From: Kiritimatiellia bacterium
Lineage (GTDB): Bacteria > Verrucomicrobiota > Kiritimatiellia > RFP12 > UBA1067
Reading direction: 5' to 3'
Length of the DNA: 56,991 nucleotides
Assembly: GCA_017450695.1 (NCBI GenBank)
Contig: JAFSTA010000211.1
Coordinates: forward strand, 1-56,991
In this document: positions 2,283 through 56,265 of the stretch, in pieces
How the letters are laid out: each line of letters opens with the position of its first letter
How positions within the stretch are numbered: the stretch's first letter is position 1
The notes under the pieces: generated by a model
The model's input: the letters and a program-made list of their open reading frames with translations, nothing else
Database searches by the model: none
What the model was told of the DNA's origin: nothing
Position numbers and translations under genes: made by a program

Positions 2283-2654
2283 CGCAGAACTTCGTCGCCA
2301 AACTTGATTCGAATACACCCATACGAGACGGTATCGTATATCGAAGGAATTCAGCCCCCTCTTTCGTGGCGTTTGCGGACCAGAGCACCCGACCTGAAAA
2401 AAGCCGCATAACTGCAAAACACTCAAGTGGCTTGAGCAAAGCCAGCCTAGCGAATCCGCAGCGTATGCGCAAGTAGAAAAACAGAAAATATTCGGCTTTC
2501 TCTTGTATGGGCGGTAATTGAGATTATTTGATCAAAGTTAGCCCACCACCCGCATTCACGCGGGAATGTACATGAGGGCGAGGTGCTTCACACCAGCTGA
2601 GAAAATAGGGACGCGCGACACGCGACACGCGACATACATGTGTCGGCCCGCCCT

Positions 2655-2770
2655 GCGGCTTCGCTGCTAAATGGACCTTCGGTCCTAAGTGGGCTACGCC
2701 CTAAATGGCGGCTGGGGCCACCTAAATGACTTAGCCCGTAAGGGCATTTAGGAGCGAAGCGACACTTACC
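2655..2770. repeat. Hairpin-array repeat, copy 1
   Basis: A series of short GC hairpins separated by 5-nt linkers: GGACC-TTC-GGTCC (2673-2685), GGGC-TAC-GCCC (2691-2701), an imperfect GGCGGC/CC stem, and GCCC-GTAA-GGGC (2734-2745). Linkers on the left half are TAAAT or TAAGT and on the right half ATTTA or ACTTA, that is, their reverse complements. Other copies are near 40950, 47687 and 56138. Confidence 0.75.
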
Positions 2771-3040
2771 ACGAAGTGTACTTACCCCGCTTCCCCGATT
2801 TTGTGTCCTGTTTCCCTCTGCGCGGGACAAACTCACCCTCATTCCCGCGCACAATGCGGCCTACCCGCCCCCCCCGCTACCAGCTACCAGCCTCGCATTG
2901 CGCGGCAAAGGGCATTGCCGCCGTCATCATGCACAAAAACGCCATCGTCAATTTTTCATAACAGAACCTCCATTCTTTTGATGAAAGAATTCCACCCCAT
3001 TTCCTACAAACATTCCAACAAATTGATGGAGAACCTATTG

Positions 3041-4412: not shown

Positions 4413-6641
4413 TTATTCATGTGATTCGTTGACACCTCGACTATTGCACATCATCATGTTATAATGATTTTCATGCTTAAGTTCCTTAAATATTCGCGCA
4501 AAAACCTCTTTGTATGTATCAATCGAATCTTCGGTAACTTGATATGCCAAATCATCATCTATTGCATGTGAACCATCGTTCACCCAGAGGAAAAGAGACT
4601 TTACTATAAATGCATCACGACCGGTAAACTTGGATTCTAAATCCTCACGGTTCATGCCACCTAGAATTTTAAAATAGAATTCTAAGATTCTTCGCATTGC
4701 ATTCTGAACACTAACCAAAGATGAATTTTCATCTTGAATCTCTCTCCACAAGAGTTCATACGAGGTTTTAATCGGATTGCCAGTTTCTCGTTTGATGAAT
4801 GAGTTGTTGCTTCGTTTTTTAACAACCCAATATGAAATACCTTTTGTTTTTTCATGCTCACGAGAAAAAGTCAGTTCTTTATGAAAATAAACATTGTGAG
4901 TGAGGACTATAAGTTGTTTAAGTGCTGAGTTATTTGCCTGAACATCCTTCGCGCACTGTCTGACAAGAGAAGCCACGACGAATAAAACATTAGAATCCAG
5001 ACTAGAAACGGGATCGTCTATAACAGCAATTCGATTTTCCTCAACCCGTTCTGAAGACACACCACCTTTTAATAAATGGTAAAAATAGAGGAATGTCACA
5101 AAAGATCGCTCGCCCTCACTTAATGTATCATTGACATCACTTCCATCTGAGCGTTTTAATTTATATGTAGTCTCGGTCGCTGGTGCAAGCTTGAAAGAAT
5201 CAAAGCCAAACGAGGAAAGCATTGAATTGATGGCATCTACTGTCGGTAATATACTTGTTTGCTTTTTCTGCAATTCACGAAGTTCAGCTTCTATAACTCT
5301 TTTCTCATGCTCCTTTGCAATCTTTGCTTGCTCGACGCCAGATTTTGCCTTTTCAGAATTGTCTCTCTTGGCAAAAAGCGTTTCAAGATCCTGCCTGTGT
5401 TCTTCGATAAGAAGATTCCATGTTTCATCAATGATTCTTCGACCATTGGCGGCTTTATCATCAATTAGTCGGTTGTGTTCCTGGATCTTCTTATTCGTAA
5501 CGGAAACAATGTCTTTTAACAGGTTAACATCAGGCATGATGTCTGGCATTTCAACAACCCTGCTAGGCTCTTTCTGCTTCGATTCAATAAGGCGGTTGAC
5601 CAAAACAGTTTTAGTTACCAATCTATCGGCTACCTCTTTAAAGGTAAGCGCGTCAAAATAAGGGTTAACTATAGCTTCTATCGCTTCAATCCATTTAGAC
5701 AAAGAATCTACAGCGGCTTTAATATTATTCGACCATGTTTTCAATTCACTCATGTTGCGAGTGAACGATTCATCGAAATATTTGTCGAGTTTTGAGGCAA
5801 AATCAGGCGGGAGAATTTGCTGGCAGAAAGGGCATTTCCCAGCACTTTTATTCATGTGCGTGTGCCCCTCGCGTACCCAATCACTGATACCTATATCATT
5901 GATTAGTTTTGCAATATCAACATCCCCACTTCCTATTATAACTTGCCTAAATATCTGATTGTCGATGCCGTTTGAAAGTGCGCTAAAATCAAAAATGGGC
6001 AACAAAGAAAACCTTATCGAATCAGAGCCAAATATGGATTTAATTTCAGACACCAAATCCACGCGCGTTCGCACTGATTCTGACCGTTTACCTTTTCTTG
6101 CAGCCCATAAAGAAACGATTTGTTGTTTGAATTTTGCTTTACTGCCCATAAGCCCCTTGAAGACTGCCTTGAAATCAGTATCGTTGGGGGTGCGAATTTT
6201 ATCCCAACAGTAATCTTCTATCGCTCTTTCACTTTCTGCCAATAGGGCAATCTTCCCGCTATCACCATTCAAGTCAGAATCAAGGGAAATGATTTTTTGA
6301 GAGATGTCATCAATTTGTCTTTTCTTTGCGCCAATAGCGTCAACTATGGCTTTGTCTGCGGCGCCCAATGTAAACACGCCTTTTATCTCGCTTGAAGGAG
6401 CAAAGTTCGCATCTACAAAATCTTTATTGTACACAAAGGTAGGCAATGGAATGCCACCATCCCATTCCAATACGCATTTCCCGTGATAGTTCTCCGGCGT
6501 AGCAATAACACGGCTTATCGTTGTTTTCCCAGAACCATTGGAGCCATAGACAAAATTAACATTGCCCAAGTCGCCAAACTCTTGGCATGTTTCACCGAAG
6601 CTAGCAACATTTGAAATTCTGACAGATTTTAACATTGCCAC
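4413..6641 (-). CDS. RloC/PrrC-like AAA ATPase, candidate anticodon nuclease
   Basis: The 742-residue protein is of the AAA_13/RloC type. Walker A is GSNGSGKT (residues 33-40). A CPFC zinc-hook motif (270-273) lies in the predicted coiled-coil region, as in Rad50 and RloC. The ABC signature is LSEGE, Walker B is AVIDDPVSSLD, and the H-switch is VLTHN. The C-terminal ~100 residues hold R650-x3-E654 (in NAMRRILEFYF) and H692 (in WVNDGSHAID), spacing resembling the Arg-Glu-His triad of PrrC/RloC nucleases, which cleave tRNA wobble positions when restriction is blocked by phage. It starts 9 nt after radC in an AT-rich operon headed by a type II restriction-modification pair. ATPase family is secure; nuclease activity is inferred from position and motif. 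Confidence 0.75.
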   Translation of the reverse strand: MAMLKSVRISNVASFGETCQEFGDLGNVNFVYGSNGSGKTTISRVIATPENYHGKCVLEWDGGIPLPTFVYNKDFVDANFAPSSEIKGVFTLGAADKAIVDAIGAKKRQIDDISQKIISLDSDLNGDSGKIALLAESERAIEDYCWDKIRTPNDTDFKAVFKGLMGSKAKFKQQIVSLWAARKGKRSESVRTRVDLVSEIKSIFGSDSIRFSLLPIFDFSALSNGIDNQIFRQVIIGSGDVDIAKLINDIGISDWVREGHTHMNKSAGKCPFCQQILPPDFASKLDKYFDESFTRNMSELKTWSNNIKAAVDSLSKWIEAIEAIVNPYFDALTFKEVADRLVTKTVLVNRLIESKQKEPSRVVEMPDIMPDVNLLKDIVSVTNKKIQEHNRLIDDKAANGRRIIDETWNLLIEEHRQDLETLFAKRDNSEKAKSGVEQAKIAKEHEKRVIEAELRELQKKQTSILPTVDAINSMLSSFGFDSFKLAPATETTYKLKRSDGSDVNDTLSEGERSFVTFLYFYHLLKGGVSSERVEENRIAVIDDPVSSLDSNVLFVVASLVRQCAKDVQANNSALKQLIVLTHNVYFHKELTFSREHEKTKGISYWVVKKRSNNSFIKRETGNPIKTSYELLWREIQDENSSLVSVQNAMRRILEFYFKILGGMNREDLESKFTGRDAFIVKSLFLWVNDGSHAIDDDLAYQVTEDSIDTYKEVFARIFKELKHENHYNMMMCNSRGVNESHE

Positions 6642-31054: not shown

Positions 31055-31222
31055 ATTCTCCCCTTTGAAGTAAGTTAGGTGGTTGGGTGGTTAGCCCGTC
31101 GCCCGGGAGGGACGCGCCCCGTCGCGTCCACAACGCTTGTCAGACCTCCCCGCCTTTCAGCTTCTCAGCCTCTCAGCTTACCCGGTCTCCCCGTCTTACC
31201 CAGCCTAACACGATCCGCAGAC

Positions 31223-40919: not shown

Positions 40920-41075
40920 GAGTCCCTGTGCAGCTTCCCCGCTAAGTCAACTTAGGGGTGCCAGCCCCATTTCGACCGCAGGGCCACTTAGGCGGCGCTA
41001 CCGACACTTATCTGCCGCCCAGTTTCTCAGCTAACGCGTAGCGCCGCTATGCGTCCCGCGTTTGCGCGGACGTCG
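40920..41075. repeat. Hairpin-array repeat, copy 2 (partly decayed)
   Basis: Contains GGGGT-GCCA-GCCCC (40955-40968), degenerate second and third hairpins with the ACTTA linkers, a TCTCAGCTAACGCGTAGCGCC word and CCGCG-TTTG-CGCGG near 41057. A GCGACATGCGACAC tract precedes it. From 41075 to 41300 no gene is supported. Confidence 0.65.
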
Positions 41076-47447: not shown

Positions 47448-47686
47448 ATGGCATTGTGATTTGCGACATGGTTGGCATTTGTGAGCATTTGAGATTTGTG
47501 AACAGTGAAGTTACAGACGAGCTTCTAAGCTAGCCGGATAAGCTGGATAAGCCGGATACGCATTGCGGTCGCGACGGGGCACGCCCCTCCCGTGTGAGGC
47601 AAAAGACAAACGACACGCGACAGGGGACATGCGGGACATGAGACACGAGACAAAACCCGGCATTGCTTCGCGGCAAATTCAACTTA

Positions 47687-47811
47687 GGGACGCCAGTCCC
47701 ATTTAGGCCCGCAGGACCACTTAGGCGGCACATCCGCCACTTCTCAGCCTCTCAACTTCCCCGCTTTTCAGCTGGCACGTAGTGCCTCTGTGCGTCCCGC
47801 GCTTACGCGGG
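47687..47811. repeat. Hairpin-array repeat, copy 3
   Basis: GGGAC-GCCA-GTCCC (47687-47700), ATTTA, GGCCC-GCA-GGACC (47706-47718, one mismatch), ACTTA, GGCGG-CACAT-CCGCC (47724-47738), then GGCAC-GTA-GTGCC (47774-47786) and CCCGCG-CTTA-CGCGGG (47796-47811). Confidence 0.85.
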
Positions 47812-56137: not shown

Positions 56138-56230
56138 GGCGCATAGCGCCCCCGCCGCTTCGCGGCTACGTCAACTTAGGGGCACCAGCCCCATTTAGGC
56201 CCGCAGGGCCACTTAGGCGGCGCAGCCGCC
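56138..56230. repeat. Hairpin-array repeat, copy 4 (most intact)
   Basis: GGCGC-ATA-GCGCC (56138-56150), then GGGGC-ACCA-GCCCC (56179-56192), ATTTA, GGCCC-GCA-GGGCC (56198-56210), ACTTA, GGCGGC-GCA-GCCGCC (56216-56230), ACTTA. All stems are perfect. Confidence 0.9.
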
Positions 56231-56265
56231 ACTTATCCGCCTCTCCGCTTTCTCAAAGAACGCGC

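Follow-up and report, generated by a model that had tools for sequence, protein, structure and literature searches.

Tandem arrays of variable mini-hairpins joined by a five-nucleotide linker in Kiritimatiellia: a probable DNA-level repeat family, found in frame within genes of a sister genus

Hairpin arrays of the window

The stretch of DNA analysed here (hereafter the window) comprises 56,991 nucleotides of a Kiritimatiellia bacterium contig (JAFSTA010000211.1, assembly GCA_017450695.1). As claimed in a preliminary description made from the sequence alone, it contains four copies of a common plan of short hairpins joined by the linker AYTTA, at positions 2655, 40950, 47682 and 56138. Among its genes, one on the minus strand (4413-6641) encodes a 742-aa protein with a Pfam AAA_13 match along its entire length (E 1.6e-162).

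The copy at 56138 is headed by a CAGCT-headed hairpin, GGCGC-ATA-GCGCC (56138..56150, plus strand), belonging to a separate dispersed hairpin family with 41 pattern matches in the sampled part of the genome (0.885 Mb, see below). It is followed by a left hairpin of opposite polarity, GCCGC-TTC-GCGGC, and a head-to-head junction, CTACGT-CA-ACTTAG (together 56154..56178, no strand assigned). The array proper reads ACTTA-hairpin-ATTTA-hairpin-ACTTA-hairpin-ACTTA on the plus strand, and is composed of hairpin A, GGGGC-ACCA-GCCCC (56179..56192), the linker ATTTA (56193..56197), hairpin B, GGCCC-GCA-GGGCC (56198..56210), the linker ACTTA (56211..56215), hairpin C, GGCGGC-GCA-GCCGCC (56216..56230), and a terminal ACTTA (56231..56235), the loops of B and C both being of the c(GNA)g kind. 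The linkers were read from the sequence, and the hairpins from sequence and fold. As single-stranded DNA, the segment 56138-56235 folds into exactly five hairpins with all linkers unpaired (-30.2 kcal/mol, z -3.98, equalled by 0 of 200 shuffles).

Copies 2 and 3 display the same A-B-C triplet, which defines the arrays that we call type I. Copy 2 (40950..41010, plus strand) reads ACTTA-GGGGTGCCAGCCCC-ATTTC-GACCGCAGGGCC-ACTTA-GGCGGCGCTACCGAC-ACTTA and is partially decayed, and copy 3 (47682..47743, plus strand) reads ACTTA-GGGACGCCAGTCCC-ATTTA-GGCCCGCAGGACC-ACTTA-GGCGGCACATCCGCC-ACTTC. The stem pairs GGGGC/GCCCC, GGGAC/GTCCC, GGCGC/GCGCC, GGCAC/GTGCC and GGGGT/GCCCC, from which compensatory change between copies had been proposed, all exist, but the GGCGC/GGCAC pair belongs to the neighbouring CAGCT-headed hairpin, outside the AYTTA array, and the sole GGGAC/GTCCC double change of helix A is that of copy 3.

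Copy 1 (2655..2784, no strand assigned) is a bipolar array of a second type, type II, in which the left half has the opposite polarity and the two halves meet head to head (for example as CTAAGT-CA-ACTTAG). Read directly from the sequence, its left half carries TAAAT/TAAGT linkers and hairpins at 2655-2667, 2673-2685, 2691-2701 and 2707-2722, the junction TAAAT-G-ACTTA occupies 2723-2733, and the right half carries ACTTA/ATTTA linkers and hairpins at 2734-2745, 2751-2763 and 2769-2779 (single-stranded DNA fold z -4.67, equalled by 0 of 200 shuffles). The left-half linkers are thus reverse complements, as had been noticed. The same holds for the loops, which are TTC/TAC in the left half and GTA/GAA in the right half, loop polarity flipping along with linker polarity in type II arrays. 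Mutual pairing of the two halves of copy 1 is also possible.

A GCGACAC/GCGACAT tract adjoins copy 1 (2614..2645, plus strand). The association of such a tract with every copy holds for all four copies of the window but does not extend to the genome sample, where at least three GCGACAC words within 200 nt upstream were found at 6 of 36 type I arrays, still an enrichment over the 0.35% of random positions.

Anatomy and distribution of the array family

The genome to which the window belongs (5.03 Mb in 287 contigs) was used in full for pattern counts, while all other copy statistics derive from a 0.885 Mb sample of it, enriched for contigs with matches. Genome-wide, the pattern TTAGGN{6,30}CCAYTTA yielded 423 matches against 32 for the reversed control, and the stricter CCAYTTAGN{6,18}CCAYTTA 225 against 1, far more than chance would give. 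Hairpins running end to end were found in 161 of the 282 sampled segments between consecutive linkers, compared to 17 of 168 for a control linker, and 144 of these 161 modules lie outside predicted ORFs. The loop is closed by C-G in 148 of them, the commonest loops being GCA (43), GAA (22), GTA (21), GCCA (17), GCAA (8) and GTCA (7). The preceding linker is ACTTA in 115 cases, ATTTA in 41 and ACGTA in 5, TTAG hence being the predominant tag. As many as 74 distinct hairpin sequences occur among the 161, which share only the linker, the foot and the closing pair with its loop. The unit can be described as AYTTA plus a hairpin mostly of 11-16 nt that has a G-C foot and ends in a GNA or GNNA loop closed by C-G, the stem between them being paired but free in sequence. 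Units are repeated in variable number, giving arrays of 41-225 bp.

The same closing pair was found in all 42 hairpins of G001, a genome of the same genus whose stems are different from those of the window's genome, and in all 73 hairpins of named gut MAGs. An unbiased scan of every hairpin also gave an excess of G..A loops, a signal diluted by other hairpin families. GNA and GNNA loops are known to form extraordinarily stable DNA mini-hairpins (PMC4686876).

Several further features accompany the arrays. A block of ~95 bp of a type II array is present in two tandem copies (locus L085, ~6100-6420, contig C90 of the window's genome). A second array class, in which GCC..GGC hairpins are separated by the linker GATTTAA(A) and accompanied by runs of CCATTTAA, often abuts AYTTA arrays in both the window's genome and G001 (contig C42, 31678-31758; C50, 243; C66, 59328, all of the former; loci L075, 3330-3500, and L137, 6500-6700). 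The genomes compared are draft assemblies, and many contigs end within an array, next to one or at the corresponding site between genes (contigs C7, C27 and C2 of the window's genome; C205, C337 and C294 of G001); the assemblies of these species probably break at arrays, with copy numbers underestimated as a result.

The arrays have a patchy distribution, being restricted to a small number of genomes within a single order of Kiritimatiellae. Within the family, ACTTAGN{3,6}GNAGN{3,5}CAYTTA is carried by 8 of 115 genomes (147 matches in the window's genome, 106 in G001, 50 in G264, 59 in G297, 34 in G298, 46 in G233, 6 in G291 and 2 in G249), with zero matches in two further species from the genus of the window. 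A slightly stricter pattern, screened in 388 genomes across the phylum, was found only in the window's genome, G233 and G015 (one match). One variant scanned in 84,980 species was confined to MAGs bearing the names Kiritimatiellae, Lentisphaerae (RUG572) or Verrucomicrobia (UBA3624), of which several came from goat gut. On this basis the bacterium of the window is probably an uncultured member of the Kiritimatiellae living in the gut. A pattern specific for type I had 0 matches in a collection of genome contigs, in which records of the window's genome may be absent. The 17 pattern matches in viral contigs, devoid of this hairpin plan, were taken as chance or protein repeats.

In-frame arrays of a sister genus

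In the window's genus the units measure 14-21 nt and the arrays are intergenic, whereas in a sister genus (g19) the unit is of 18 nt, a 13-nt hairpin plus the linker. Of 26 deduplicated sister-genus arrays flanked on each side by 300 bp or more, 24 were found in frame within long ORFs, the frame staying open over 80 codons or more in both directions, the exceptions being an array of 20-nt units without an open frame and one short array; some of the in-frame cases are paralogs (HZS_alpha/FGE proteins), and independent insertions are therefore fewer than 24. By the same test, in-frame arrays numbered 0 of 32 and 0 of 6 in the window's genus (0 of 38 in total) and 0 of 2 in g6. The sister-genus 13-nt units are perfectly paired in 150 of 161 cases, and their stems fall into nine recurrent classes.

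According to Pfam, the host proteins include HZS_alpha plus FGE-sulfatase proteins, an FGGY sugar kinase, a PFL-like glycyl radical enzyme and a PLP decarboxylase, and one host is a carboxynorspermidine decarboxylase. The encoded peptides read LSAASQLSGPSGLS... in the left half and ...LSREATLRGEAPL in the right half of the arrays, with the pattern LSxxSxLS / TLRGEAPL. The kinase array falls within the FGGY_C match, at a site where orthologs from six species (69-82% identity) have no insert but a short variable linker; the two aligned stretches are separated by 21 residues in the solved xylulokinase 5vm1 and by 86 in the array-bearing kinase. A DNA alignment of the filled FGGY kinases of G233 and G297 revealed a difference of one 18-nt unit plus point changes, and one kinase translation has a stop upstream of the kinase domain. 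The decarboxylase array covers residues ~371-424, between aligned stretches that only five residues separate in the solved homolog 9eaf. The array-bearing decarboxylase (locus L229, ORF 566-2071) carries a second, unrelated palindromic in-frame insert at residues ~193-239, GGSQFTATDDSDAINCVPP, which resembles one in a protein of contig C150 of the window's genome, GGPQFIAADNDADTPDAMNCVPP.

These in-frame arrays might be explained as protein-level elements, i.e. flexible inserts rich in Ser, Pro, Ala and Gly that were selected as such, the hairpins being a by-product. Their almost exclusive location in frame in the sister genus, the low complexity of peptides such as LSAASQLSGPSGLS and the nature of the kinase site, a loop whose length also varies among insert-free orthologs, are all in agreement with this scenario. 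Against it, differences between stems alter the amino acids (GPSG, APTA, AASQ) while pairing is kept, arrays are read in both orientations, and similar hairpins lie between genes in the window's genus. We regard this explanation as very unlikely. A protein-level or RNA-level use of individual arrays is possible.

Maintenance of pairing and relation to known repeats

Pairing of 13-nt units exceeds that of shuffled sequences in the sister genus (98.5% vs 64.9%), in G001 (86.1% vs 53.8%) and in the window's genome (84.8% vs 59.2%). Compensation within aligned arrays of the window type is modest. In a hand-made register, 6 cells were changed on both sides against 39 uncompensated; in a MAFFT alignment there were 6 compensated cells, whereas shuffled alignments had 1.4 on average and reached 6 in 1 of 500 cases, while pairing cells amount to 91.5% against 90.5% in shuffles. 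Strict covariation on the A-B-C arrays is thus weak, and helix B alone clearly exceeds the shuffled values (p 0.005, compared to 0.03 for A and 0.65 for C). Since pairing is kept between units and species but only weakly compensated within one array position, the variety of stems arises mostly between whole intact units, and copies decay afterwards. Of the two causes put forward initially, selection on pairing is poorly supported in the window's own arrays, where uncompensated stem changes outnumber compensated ones by about 6:1 and GT mismatches are about as frequent as AC ones. The other cause, copying in a way that preserves pairing, is supported, stems varying by module and species while pairing, linkers, the closing C-G and the GNA/GNNA loops persist.

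A structured RNA (regulatory leaders, terminators or mRNA stabilisers) with its pairing under selection might account for pairing despite stem variation and for the compensation in helix B, and the RNA fold of 56138-56235 gives the identical five hairpins. RNA under selection should favour G-U over A-C mismatches. Among stems with one mismatch, GT and TG (15) are about as frequent as AC and CA (13). Arrays of the window's genome exhibit no gene-orientation bias (17 on the same and 14 on the opposite strand; 15 between divergent and 14 between convergent genes), tetraloops are mostly GNYA (GCCA, GTCA and GCTA, 26) with GNRA as a minority (GCAA and GTAA, 12), and a search of the window against Rfam 15 produced no match above the gathering score except three tRNAs. 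On these grounds, none of them decisive singly, we infer that the arrays are DNA-level repeats rather than transcript structures, and together with the excess of uncompensated changes they make the RNA explanation improbable. Two DNA-level alternatives were considered. Hairpins with compensatory changes have been documented to arise and to be maintained by template switching (PMC8794818), and one-arm mutations copied to the other arm by such quasi-palindrome correction would let stems drift in pairs without selection; however, uncompensated changes dominate the window-type arrays and the few recurrent stem classes of the sister genus fit whole-unit copying better, rendering this scenario unlikely. 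The other one is a strict REP/BIME system, where the TTAG or GTAG preceding the hairpins would act as the tag of a REP whose hairpins are cut and spread as single-stranded DNA by a Y1 transposase (RAYT/TnpA_REP). Linker variants do yield ACGTAG besides ACTTAG, halves meet as CTAAGT-CA-ACTTAG like the HH dimers of GTAG repeats, the PVC group is known to harbour such repeats (PMC3733652), and Y1_Tnp genes are present in all six array-bearing genomes examined. Nevertheless, AYTTAG hairpins lie near only 1 of the 19 Y1_Tnp loci of array-bearing genomes, the two Y1_Tnp genes of the window's genome carry other REPs (GTAG-GACGGCG at C137, GGGAG-tagged hairpins at C150), Y1_Tnp also occurs in many relatives without arrays, and substitutions in GTAG abolish the activity of E. 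coli TnpA_REP, other groups being laxer (PMC8266576). A system of this kind therefore appears rather unlikely.

We favour instead, with a probability of about 0.6, a dispersed family of small DNA repeats, organized in tandem and often bipolar arrays of linker plus hairpin, which multiplies at the DNA level through the copying of units as single-stranded hairpins. The very stable c(GNA)g and c(GNNA)g hairpins would form when a strand folds during replication or recombination, and whole units of linker plus hairpin may then be duplicated, lost or exchanged by slippage, template switching or conversion between arrays. Every copied unit would thus bring along a perfect stem, which would drift later. 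Arrays would be tolerated between genes, or within genes only if the unit length keeps one stop-free frame. Change by units is supported by the kinase arrays of G233 and G297, which are one unit apart, and by the block duplicated in tandem at C90. Neither an insertion accompanied by target duplication nor a clean empty site could be established for any of the window copies (the fourth array lies at a synteny break, homology with G001 stopping at the array and the other side being different); at two other loci, the window's genome and G001 both harbour arrays, which are different. No dispersal enzyme was identified at the Y1_Tnp loci of the array-bearing genomes examined. The constancy of the C-G closing pair and of the GNA loops between genera could be a legacy of unit copying and not a functional requirement. 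More tentatively, the arrays may represent a self-propagating class of repeats defined by physical fold and not by sequence, in which units are copied because a c(GNA)g or c(GNNA)g mini-hairpin forms in single-stranded DNA and any stem is able to spread, one lineage having perhaps fixed an 18-nt unit, stop-free in one frame per strand, and thereby colonised enzyme loops.

The proposal that the arrays belong to no named family stood as far as Rfam is concerned, but the class has relatives in design: they resemble REP/BIME and Rickettsia palindromic elements (RPE) and are members of neither, their array design and in-frame branch being unusual. With the REP/BIME/REPIN elements of the GTAG and CGTC superfamilies (PMC3733652, PMC8266576) they share short G+C-rich hairpins in high copy number between genes, a 5' tag, head-to-head pairs and mosaics, and a patchy distribution. 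In contrast to REPs, they form rows of hairpins on a 5-nt linker, have stems that are not conserved within a genome, are not linked to the RAYT genes found, and lie in frame within genes in the sister genus. As in REPs, the palindromes are high-copy and mostly extragenic in the window's genome, the extragenic part failing in the sister genus. Most REP families keep GTAG at one end in >90% of members (PMC3733652), whereas here (Y)TTAG is far commoner than GTAG and the 74 hairpin sequences among 161 have no family consensus motif; nor do the repeats flank a cognate Y1 transposase gene, the single locus among 19 apart. RPEs are single elements of 105-146 bp with terminal inverted repeats and one long stem-loop, inserted in frame in unrelated proteins or intergenic (Ogata et al. 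2000; review, PMC2229807). The sister-genus arrays are likewise inserted in frame in unrelated conserved proteins, but the mini-hairpin design, 41-225 bp with variable unit number and stems, sets them apart from RPEs as described, the comparison being one of design. PARCELs (PMC2996958) are also tandem palindromic coding repeats of patchy distribution, though with a 25-residue amphipathic repeat in ORFs without known function, as opposed to a 6-residue period in known enzymes plus an intergenic form. The coding palindromes of Nematomorpha mitochondria (PMC6649704) are perfect inverted repeats in protein-coding genes as well, but long (up to 284 bp), single and of animal mitochondria, and the mini-hairpin d(GCGAAGC) obeys the same loop rule on G-C stem pairs as an in vitro motif, not a genomic repeat family (PMC4686876). 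Our literature search, thin on subscription journals, found no paper on palindromic repeats in Kiritimatiellae.

With linker, loop and pairing conserved and the stem free, it becomes directly testable how palindromic repeats retain their symmetry, and sister genera with arrays between genes in one and in frame in the other constitute a natural experiment on the entry of repeat DNA into proteins. The arrays also disturb the assemblies and gene calls of their uncultured gut bacterial hosts.

Other palindromic families coexist with the arrays in the window's genome. The Y1_Tnp (RAYT-like) gene of contig C137 (locus L050, 6779-7627) contains several REP copies, CGTAGC-GACGGCG-CCCT-CGCCGTC, within its own coding sequence; this GTAG-GACGGCG repeat was counted 36 times in the 0.885 Mb sample, including 6 copies at the C137 gene. 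A third dispersed hairpin family, GGGAG-headed, has copies within the second Y1_Tnp gene (C150) and in its surroundings, in the window at 31104, 971 (minus strand) and 39225 (minus strand), and at loci L212, L172 and L056 (8012-8400), and likewise displays paired stem variants (GGACGCG/CGCGTCC, GGTCGCG/CGCGACC, GGCCGCAA/TTGCGGCC and GGGCAACG/CGTTGCCC).
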